From Urechis unicinctus (Eukaryota; Annelida; Polychaeta; Xenopneusta; Urechidae): 64,000 bases of DNA. The position numbers and the translations under genes are program-made. The notes below the pieces were generated by a model. That model had not been told where the DNA came from. It searched no databases and was given only the letters and a program-made list of their open reading frames with translations. How positions within the stretch are numbered: position 1 is the stretch's first letter; every line of letters starts with the position of its first letter. Location of the stretch: the NCBI GenBank assembly GCA_034190875.2, contig CM067343.1, positions 24,747,000 through 24,810,999 of the forward strand. The letters are read 5' to 3'. Shown piece by piece: positions 17,803-64,000 of the stretch.

Positions 17803-18539
17803 TAAATATCGACTCGACGATAGAAATCGGAATTAATAATTTCGATAAAAAAAGGGTGCGTTAACAGTCGCAAGCGTAACTCAACGTTATTTCGTGATGG
17901 AGGATCTAACGAAACAGTCAAAGCGACTCGATTGTGATGGGATTAAAATCTAGTTTATACCCTATTTAGTCATTGCGGCATACATGCTTGGACACAGGGT
18001 AAAGACAATGTCAGCTGAGAACACGACCCGAGGTCCCGTCACACTTTTCTAAATGTACGATGTGAGGCATATAACAGATCAACAGAACATCACTGATACA
18101 TATGCTAATTAGCGTATTATGGTCATTTTATAGGCAAGACACACGCCCCTGGTCTTTTGATGATCTGATGCGCGGATATGAGAAATCGAAATTAGTAAAC
18201 GCGCGGACGCTGTAAGAGGCGAATTTTCTTTGCCTAGGTCGTTTTACTGCCTAAACTGGAGGAGCACGGTTTCAGCATTCATGCCAATTTAAGAGACCCC
18301 CTATTGTCGGTTGAGAAGTTGCGACTAATTTAAGCAACTTGAAAACGGCCCAACCGCAAACCTCTTGCCGCCTAGGATAGATGCTGTTAACCTATAGATT
18401 GTTGTTTTGTAGTCCAAATTAAATGGATGATATGATTGTGTTTCATATGCAGTTGGCGCGACGTCGTACAGACTGATTTCTTTTAACACAAACAGGTTCA
18501 AGCCATCCGATCATTGGCTATTTTTCTTCAAATCAGTTT

Positions 18540-18940
18540 CTATACTAATAACTTTTTTTTGACATGTTGGTTCAAAAAAGAGGCTGCTTTGGTTCTGTCA
18601 TATAGTGTATGGGTGTTTTTGTGTCCAAGTCCTCTATTTTAGAAGCAAGTGATGGTCCTAAATTAATAAAACTTTTATTATATTCATTTGCGATAACAGC
18701 TCTATCCATGGTCAACTCCCCATCAGTTAGCCTTAGTCTGCTTGATACCATTGAGATCCTTTAATAGCCTCCATGACATTTTCGAATCAGTTTTGCATGT
18801 TTAAAATTCAGATTGATAATAAGCCTTTTCTGTGTGTCGAAGAATATTTCTTGATGTAGTTTTGCATTGTTTGTATTTAGTGGTGTTGTACATAATTGGC
18901 TGTTTTCCGTATTTTAGATAAAGTTTATTCTTTAATTTGA
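18540..18940 (-). mobile_element. Decayed LINE ORF2 fragment (unit A copy)
   Basis: Minus-strand sequence parallel to the clearer copy at 24.41-24.79 kb. It has the same frameshifted segments of the region between endonuclease and reverse transcriptase of a non-LTR retrotransposon. It is interrupted by stops and indels and cannot encode a protein. Confidence 0.6.
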
Positions 18941-20280
18941 TACATCTTTGTATTATCAGAGAGCCTGTGCAATTTTTGTATTTTCTTGACTTTGATTAAT
19001 TGTGATGGATATGCTTTATTGTAAGCCTTCTGTATGTCATTTATTAAGTAATTACACGCATATGTGATAACTCGTGGAGGATTTCCTAAGGTCAGATAAA
19101 CATATTATTGAGTAATCGTTTGTTGACGGGGGGGGGGGGATTTCGTGACAATTTTCACTTTCCACCACTGCCCAATTATTTCCCAATAATTTATCACCAG
19201 CGATCTTACGGCTGTATTTATTGTCGGAAATGGATGTGCTTAGGCGTTAAATAGAGCATCAATCAACACGTAGAAACTGACCCAGGTCGGGCAAGATCTT
19301 CAATTCAATATATAGGATGACTTTCGCCTTGCCTGCGCAGTTATAACGTTCAAACAAAACAAAACAAAACATGCACAGCCTATTACCATAATGTGCTGTT
19401 GCTGGGATTCAATTGACTGATAAAGCGAAAAGCAACTTGACATTATTGGACTGGGAATACATCTACGTCACATCTTATAGATCACTTAGCCATGACCTTC
19501 ATCAAGCTGCAATCACGCACCACCAATGCTGATGACATTAATCGTGGCAAGGCCAGACACGTGTTATCGCGTGCCAATTTGCACAAGCCTATTGTAAAGA
19601 TGAACGATGACGGGCAGCTTGCTTAAAAGTGAGTGAGTGCCACATGCTGGGGACTCTTTATAAAGTACCATGGGGGTATACATGAAACAATTGCTTCAAA
19701 CGCACCTTGTCAGAAATCTAATAACATCCGCAGTTCACTAACGGCTGCCACATCACGGCTGTCATAACGCGCTGTTCATGCACCATTCGTTGCTAATAAT
19801 GAGTATGTACAGATAGGTTGCGGAGACACGCACACATTAACAAAGTCCACGTTGATAACTGTTCTGAAAATATCTTTTCGAAGCCATTGGCACCCTTCTA
19901 TGCTTATATATTCGGGATTCGTCTTTTAGTCGAGGACACAGTTCTTACAAACAATGCAGTCTAATATGTCTATTCATTTTTAAGCGACAAACTCGATTCA
20001 CTTGTTCATACACGCTTAATACCCACGCCTCTAGCAACACTATTAACATAATGGTCAGATTTTGGATATAGCAGCCTAATGACATACTTCTCTTATTGGC
20101 AGATATAACCATGTATTGAGCGGCACTTTCGTGTTATATGACCATTACTTCTTGCTTTAAGCAAATCACTATGTAATATATATAAAGACTAATATTGACA
20201 AGGCCCCACCCAGCGTGTGAAGTAGGGCTTAAAGGGGGGTTTGTTAGTAACGATAAAAAGTGTACTACCTAATTCACTCC

Positions 20281-20702
20281 TTTTCGTCTTACGTAGAAAT
20301 AACACTACCGAATACTCCCCTTGTCGTCATCTGTAGAAATATCAATGCCAAATACCTTCATTGTCGTCATCGGCAGAAATATCACTACCGAACACCTTGC
20401 TCGTCGTCATCTGCAGAAATATCACTGCCGAATACTCCCCTTGTCGTCATCTGTAGAAATATCAATACCGAATACTTTCTTTGTCGCCATCTGTAGAAAA
20501 AGCACTGCGGAACACCTTCTTTGTCGCCATCTGTAGAAATATCACTGCCGAACCCTTCCTTGTCAGCATCTGTAGAAATATCATTACCGGATACCCCACT
20601 TATCGTCATCTGTAGAAGAATCTCTACCGAATAACTTCTCTGTCATCATCATTAGTAATATCAATACCTTATACCCTCCTTATCGTCATCTGTAGAAATA
20701 TT
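20281..20702. repeat. 40-bp minisatellite 3' of GPCR copy 1
   Basis: About 10.5 units built on GTCGTCATCTGTAGAAATATC and ACTACCGAATACTCCCC. The array ends about 460 bp beyond the stop codon of the minus-strand receptor. The same array, with different unit numbers, sits at the matching place in units B and C. Confidence 0.9.
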
Positions 20703-62400: not shown

Positions 62401-62675
62401 TGTGTGAAACGATTGCATAATGTGGGTTATATTTTATAGTGGTTTAGAATCCCCAATGCTTAAACTACTTATATCTACCGGTGCGTATTGACAAAAGCTT
62501 TTTACAAAATAAACGCTTCGAGCATATAACGTATGTTTTATTAGAATATCTTACACTCTATCAAATATATAACATAATGTTGCCATAACAGACGTATGTT
62601 GCATATTATAATGAAGGGGCAGATATAAGCGGATTCCAGGAGTAAATAGGGTTAAGCGGATGCCATATTTCTGTT
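59407..62675. other. Spacer between GPCR copy 3 and calmodulin b
   Basis: Counterpart of 28.24-30.97 kb. Non-coding. A segment at 61.07-61.52 kb is absent from unit B. A short tandem repeat is listed separately. Confidence 0.5.
62135..62310. repeat. Short tandem repeat, about 26-bp unit (unit C)
   Basis: Six to seven units of GTTGTGATGGCACACCCTGACCTAAT with small deletions. Matches the array at 30476-30625. Confidence 0.8.
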
Positions 62676-63912
62676 TTACTTCGAACACATCATGGAAACA
62701 AATTCTGCAAAATTGAACCATTGTAAATAGTCATCACAGTTCGATATAATATGAAATAAAATAAATATCATCCTCTGTACTCCTATATCATAATTGCTTT
62801 AACATTCCGTTCATGTCAAATATCGAACCAAAATTGTTTATGCCCAGAAACGACTCACCTTCATAGTTAACCTGTCCATCCCCATCAATATCGGCTTCAC
62901 GGATCATCTCGTCGACCTCTTTGTCCGTCAGTTTCTCGCCCAGGTTTGTCATCACGTGTCGAAGCTCGGCAGCGCTGATACTTCCGTTTCCGTCTTTGTC
63001 AAACACGCGGAAAGCTTCCCTGATTTCTTCATCGCTGTCCGTATCCTTCATCTATCGAGCCATCATGGTGAGGAATTCTGGGAAATCTATCGTTCCATTC
63101 CCTATTGAAAGAATAAACGTTGGAAGATTTTCATCCATCAGCACAGTGACTTATCACAAATTAAAAATTGCTATTGTTATGATTACCTAGTTGAACTAGC
63201 CTACCAGGTCTATGTATCGAGTATCTAGAATTGATGCTCAATTACTTTGCTTAGGACATAACGGTGGTGTTTATTATCATAACGTGCATATGATGCACAA
63301 TATCCAAGTAATAATTCGTCACCATCCATGTCGAGTTCGTTGATCATATCTTTGAGTTCAGCCTCTGTTGGGTTTTGACCTAGCGACCTCATAACAGTTC
63401 CCAGTTCCTTTGTTGTAATTGTCCCATTATTCCTTATCAAACAATGAAAACGCCTCTTTGAACTCTGAAACAGGTGTTACACAAGTGACAGCAATCTGCT
63501 GTCGGTTTGTTCCATAATGGGAATATCTTAACTATCAATTATGACATATCTGCATAACTGAAGATGAAAAACCAGTAAACAACGCATGTAATTACATCAT
63601 AAGAAAATGAGGTTTTCTGATGTCTTGACCCAATAAACTAAATTAGCTTTGCGACTTGTAGACTTTCGATTCGTGAATACTGCTTCAAATGATAAGTTAT
63701 TGTGAGATTGATTGCGCTTTAGACGATAACTTAGTATCATATCTAGGCTTATATATAACTTAATATCATATCTTATATCTGTATAACCCCTTCTTGCATC
63801 GAGTTCACTGTATCACAATATACCCAGCAGCAAGGTCTTGTACAATTAATGGCATAGGGAGATACAAAGTGAATGGAATACCTGCTATTTGTTCTTCTGT
63901 CAGTGCGTCAGC
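62676..63912 (-). pseudogene. Calmodulin, copy b, disrupted
   Basis: Exons matching copy a lie at 63882-63912, 63323-63464, 62859-63101 and 62676-62704. The ATG exon would fall beyond the window end. Splice sites are kept, but the EF1 exon is 142 nt instead of 144 because of a 2-nt loss in loop 1, which brings TAA in right after FDKE. Separately, the ARKMK codon AAG is TAG (near 63054). Unlike copy a, it still has the standard Ser-Leu before loop 1. Two independent lesions make this a pseudogene. Confidence 0.85.
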
Positions 63913-64000
63913 CTGAAACCAGTGAATACATTTTTACCCTCAGTCAAAAGCGCAGCAGAACGTGATAAAAATCGACTGAAAATGTGTAATAAATGTTACT

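Follow-up and report, generated by a model that had tools for sequence, protein, structure and literature searches.

Duplicates of different age and decaying copies in a small rhodopsin-type receptor cluster of Urechis unicinctus

The 64,000-nucleotide stretch of the Urechis unicinctus genome analysed here (the window) carries three copies, A, B and C, of a unit containing a receptor gene. They most likely form a small cluster of rhodopsin-type receptors in birth-and-death evolution by duplication and decay, with gene conversion, and we put the probability of this reading at roughly 0.76. A receptor locus, together with a minisatellite on its 3′ side and a calmodulin gene on its 5′ side, would have been copied as one block in the ancestor of B and C. 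Later, a 5.9-kb segment with the receptor and the minisatellite, and without calmodulin, would have been duplicated in direct tandem, giving A and B. Afterwards the copies may have swapped patches by gene conversion, as their uneven divergence suggests, and parts of them would have decayed, namely receptor B by a frameshift, the calmodulin copy of C as a pseudogene and a further receptor in C as a relic. Duplication followed by the breakage of some copies is the ordinary way in which receptor gene families grow and decay.

Table 1. Positions of the features in the window (positions count from its first letter; a dot marks features to which no strand was assigned).
Feature	Position	Strand	Basis or remarks
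Unit A of the tandem pair	17827..23690	.	self-BLAST; 97.0% identity with B
Unit B of the tandem pair, directly adjoining A	23691..29584	.	self-BLAST, alignment
Right flank of B, homologous only to C, contains calmodulin	29585..32399	.	self-BLAST, B/C segment alignment
Unit C, without the initial 1.28 kb of the unit	56669..64000 (window end)	.	self-BLAST, segment alignment
Receptor A, intact 351-aa frame, Pfam 7tm_1	21163..22218	-	ORF, Pfam
Receptor B, frameshifted by a 1-bp deletion, 224-aa frame left	27054..28105	-	gap near 27470 in the alignment
Receptor C, intact 344-aa frame, Pfam 7tm_1	58234..59268	-	ORF, Pfam
Fourth receptor relic	57248..57574	-	tblastn against the window, E 9e-24
Calmodulin gene of B	30970..32312	-	exons 32282-32312, 31774-31911, 31304-31546, 30970-30998
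Calmodulin pseudogene of C	62676..63912	-	exons 63882-63912, 63323-63464, 62859-63101, 62676-62704
40-bp minisatellite of A, 11.0 copies	20264..20701	.	TRF
40-bp minisatellite of B, 12.6 copies	26138..26639	.	TRF
40-bp minisatellite of C	57577..57776	.	TRF row 57600-57776, 4.4 copies
Tract without A/B substitution	20890..21257	.	318 ungapped columns, longest such tract
Diverged tail of A	23650..23690	.	41 columns, stretch picked after inspection
Y_phosphatase	38327-38497	-	Pfam 1.1e-13
Y_phosphatase	36300-36521	-	Pfam 1.1e-4
F5/8-type C	43382-43642	-	Pfam 2.4e-6
fn3	41598-41999	-	Pfam 2.1e-8

A self-BLAST of the window confirmed the three-copy structure that a sequence-only reading had proposed. 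A and B were gapless head-to-tail copies with common ends (Table 1). Direct-orientation matches, each with E = 0, joined A 17827-20697 to B 23691-26555, A 20293-23691 to B 26233-29585, A 20504-23691 to C 57581-60737 and B 26853-29918 to C 58049-61073. Further B/C matches extended to B 32399 and C 64000, so unit C is truncated by the window end. Homology of C began at the equivalent of A 19107 and B 24948, the 1.28 kb at the beginning of the unit being missing, and from there to their right ends B and C were collinear with indels of at most 437 bp. The proposed order of minisatellite, receptor and spacer was recovered in all three units, with calmodulin next in B and C. Receptor and calmodulin are both encoded on the minus strand, which places the 40-bp minisatellite on the 3′ side of the receptor and calmodulin on its 5′ side. 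The borders needed correction: there are three units as claimed, but the A/B unit stops at 29584 and homology in C starts at 56669. The claim that the tandem copy left calmodulin out held with these borders, and the copied segment simply did not reach calmodulin, since its right breakpoint (29584/29585) falls about 1.4 kb before the last calmodulin exon.

The window contained no N and the A/B join (23690/23691) had no gap. The breakpoint flanks at the join had at most one base in common, and for this reason end joining or replication slippage would be a likelier origin of the tandem than recombination between repeats. A mobile-element origin of the unit was considered and rejected: inverted repeats were present in 17500-24200 (18 pairs) and in 56000-58300 (1 pair), and none of them framed the unit or the minisatellite. 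A 40-bp period was shared by three unrelated minisatellites, two at the left end of the window (473-731 and 1367-1740) and one in the receptor units, and TRF also detected 26-bp arrays at 30477-30627 and 62146-62310. Long ATGT/ACAT four-base repeats were found at 33567-33868, 52743-52995 and 55486-55953 (TRF), one of them 97% perfect across 468 bp. Such long four-base repeats assembled without N suggest a long-read assembly.

Pairwise alignment of A and B gave 97.0% identity over 5772 ungapped columns. The copies differed by 175 substitutions and by 21 indels, of which the two largest measured 80 bp (equal to two minisatellite units) and 47 bp. Noncoding segments of B and C were 86-92% identical. 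In the receptor frames (NG86, codons touching gaps excluded) dS was 0.0505 for A/B (dN 0.0202, dN/dS 0.40), 0.172 for A/C (dN 0.0619, dN/dS 0.36) and 0.141 for B/C (dN 0.0514, dN/dS 0.36). As the A/B value is below both values against C, the split of C is older and the A/B tandem younger, and silent divergence thus agrees with the age order that had been proposed. The accompanying description of A and B as a nearly identical direct tandem is right in that they abut at 97.0% identity, but it passes over substitutions at 3% of positions, 21 indels and the frameshifted receptor of B.

Very heterozygous invertebrates can plausibly show about 3% substitutions between alleles, and the A/B difference (175/5772, 3.0%) is of this kind. 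A and B could accordingly be two haplotypes of one locus laid end to end by the assembler, a false heterotype duplication, which we consider unlikely. Such an error would be expected to give the layout of left flank, two unit copies and right flank that is seen here, and an unusually high divergence, such as a contig end of poor quality could have, marks the final 41 bp of A next to the join. The gapless join is mild evidence against it, and self-comparison revealed no second pair of like length and identity within the 64 kb. Two alleles should also have equal branch lengths, yet relative to C, A had 50 private sites and B 23 in 20702-23640 (C 200; A against B, binomial p 0.002), and 48 against 21 once columns within 5 of a gap were removed (p 0.0016); conversion from C could do likewise in alleles. 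In the part of a study of such errors drawn on here, false duplications are marked by half read depth, gaps between copies and one-copy k-mers, and a true allele-specific tandem duplication inside one contig is also described (PMC9516828). The false heterotype duplications of that account resemble A and B in their adjacent, near-identical copies and in an allele-like difference of 3%, whereas A and B differ from them in adjoining each other without N or gap (PMC9516828). A and B are probably a true tandem pair, in a correct assembly. Nevertheless, a tandem pair differing by 3% in a possibly very heterozygous animal is not to be counted as gene gain before a check of the reads.

Receptors A and C are assigned to the rhodopsin-type GPCRs by profile match across the seven-helix core. 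Against PF00001 (7tm_1, cutoff 30.5 bits) receptor A scored 84.6 bits over profile positions 2-256 of 260 and receptor C 87.6 bits over positions 2-250. Both frames are still open, and the differences among the copies are biased against amino-acid change. Receptor B is no full-length receptor, a 1-bp deletion leaving a frame of 224 aa; the deletion, which turns TTT into TT, may be a sequencing error. Somatostatin receptors were the best PDB matches of receptors A and C (E about 1e-15, residues 6-312; for receptor A, among the best 60 of 92 matches), and they are distant from both. A viral contig scan with receptor C returned two pattern matches and no relative. DRY, CWxP and NPxxY are the switch motifs of class A receptors, and the present receptors depart from all three: in an alignment with SSTR2, its DRY, CWLP and NPILY stood opposite NRY, CTIP and NAVLY. 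Switch motifs vary in many class A receptors, so the altered motifs do not exclude these receptors from the class. In the 343 codons compared, four three-state codons being left aside, private changes numbered 11 nonsynonymous and 8 synonymous in A, 2 and 3 in B, and 30 and 20 in C.

The calmodulin gene of B consisted of four exons with AG/GT borders or a stop, which once spliced gave an open frame of 146 aa. Residues 1-146 of its product matched calmodulins over the full length (E 8.5e-83 to 1mxe), and it differs from known calmodulins and from the copy in C in having two residues fewer in EF-hand 1. A simple pattern search of 32312-36000 for its start exon found no ATG directly followed by GTRAG. 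The copy in C is not an open reading frame: its second listed exon is frameshifted by a 2-bp deletion, and an in-frame TAG lies in the third. The exons of equal length in B and C differed at 2/31, 5/243 and 0/29 positions, against 11.8% across the whole calmodulin stretch. Judged from these exons, both copies would have been constrained for much of the time since their split, and the loss in C is probably recent. In both B and C the receptor neighbours calmodulin and has the same orientation, as would be so for a co-selected cassette of two genes duplicating together. We consider such a cassette very improbable, as calmodulin was not copied along with the receptor in the A/B event, and with the calmodulin of C and the receptor of B broken, each block is short of one partner.

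Three copies do not capture the full age and complexity of the cluster. The three units stood as described earlier, but C also contains a fourth receptor relic, between its left piece and the minisatellite, with the 5′ end of the relic adjoining the minisatellite. Over 109 residues the relic shared 44% identity with receptor A, with one in-frame stop, and it spanned the third intracellular loop, the last helix and the C-tail; its open 74-residue part scored 15.9 bits against 7tm_1, under the cutoff. At the place of the relic A and B had unrelated sequence: A 19803-20263 had no counterpart in C, which instead has a diverged receptor fragment at 57086-57576. The relic implies that the cluster predates its three copies; either A and B lost it, or the two sides lost different parts. 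Within the stretch confined to A and B, 19914-20108 was weakly collinear with 44140-44334 near the phosphatase gene (49/72 and 46/67 positions, 42.8 and 41.2 bits), compared with 20.6 bits for the best among the matches listed in a control with reversed sequence. This similarity is perhaps an old interspersed repeat.

Divergence between B and C was 9.4% in the left piece, 14.0% 3′ of the receptor, 5.8% in the receptor, 7.9% 5′ of it, and 11.1, 11.6, 10.3 and 11.8% in successive segments towards and through calmodulin. Differing constraint or mutation rate might produce the uneven divergence of the copies in place of gene conversion, and two clean duplications would then be enough, an alternative that is possible but clearly the less probable. 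It accords with the receptor coding sequence and its 5′ flank being the most conserved of the B/C segments, and with mosaic tests that were mostly non-significant. Constraint should, however, reduce A/B and A/C divergence alike, yet the tract without A/B substitution, whose 318 columns were equalled in 151 of 20,000 random placements, differed in C from both A and B at 49 of 281 columns. Constraint is thus not the cause of the A/B identity there. Similarly, the 5′ flank of the receptor diverged by 3.9% between A and B but by 8-9% against C.

The ratio of sites private to A or B to those private to C was 2:65 in 20702-21257 and 71:135 in 21258-23640, with the best split equalled in 0 of 5000 shuffles; the segment border used in the Fisher test was picked after inspection. 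The last 41 bp of A showed 10 differences from B and 9 from C, and B and C differed there at only 3. Of six 3SEQ-like mosaic shuffles one was low, that in which A and C were the putative sources of B (69/3000, uncorrected), and the other five were non-significant; B may thus be a mosaic of the two. The long identical tract, the 50:23 private sites, the uneven ratios and the diverged tail of A together favour exchange between the copies, and suggest gene conversion with donor and direction unproven. With the receptor relic and the patchy divergence, two clean events alone are probably insufficient. A more far-reaching proposal is that the receptors form an unusual class A branch with all three switch motifs altered, under purifying selection (dN/dS 0.36-0.40), its copies homogenized through exchange that continues between A, B and C and also involves one or more unseen paralogs, one of them the donor of the last 41 bp of A. 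We regard it as doubtful, and quite unlikely as a whole. The likelihoods attached to the rival explanations overlap, and these explanations are not mutually exclusive.

The window is eukaryotic, since it holds intron-split genes. Rfam and ARAGORN searches of the window gave no hit and no tRNA. A DYRK2-like kinase was located on the minus strand at 7563-9242 as an intronless open frame of 559 aa (best PDB match E 1.5e-238). At about 36.3-44 kb, Pfam domain matches on the minus strand identified a receptor-type protein tyrosine phosphatase (Table 1). EGF-like stretches in this region were recognized by eye alone, and six of the ten stretches checked by Pfam had no family match. Pieces of the phosphatase ectodomain recurred inverted 11 kb away, 41653-41805 at 53516-53668 (74.5%) and 42429-42592 at 53072-53235 (82.3%, both by self-BLAST). 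The inverted recurrence suggests a second copy or fragment of the phosphatase gene on the opposite strand.

The cluster is a compact case of duplicates of different age in which decay is already visible, and can serve as a worked example; knowledge of receptor families is unchanged by it. It would be a further example of class A receptors multiplying in tandem, as is already known: lineage-specific tandem expansions of these GPCRs are described, in the part of the source used here, for molluscs, namely octopus and other cephalopods (PMC6408891). What the cluster shares with the expansions of that account is the local multiplication of class A (PF00001) receptors as tandem, co-localized copies; it differs from them in its size, the window showing only three copies and a relic (PMC6408891).
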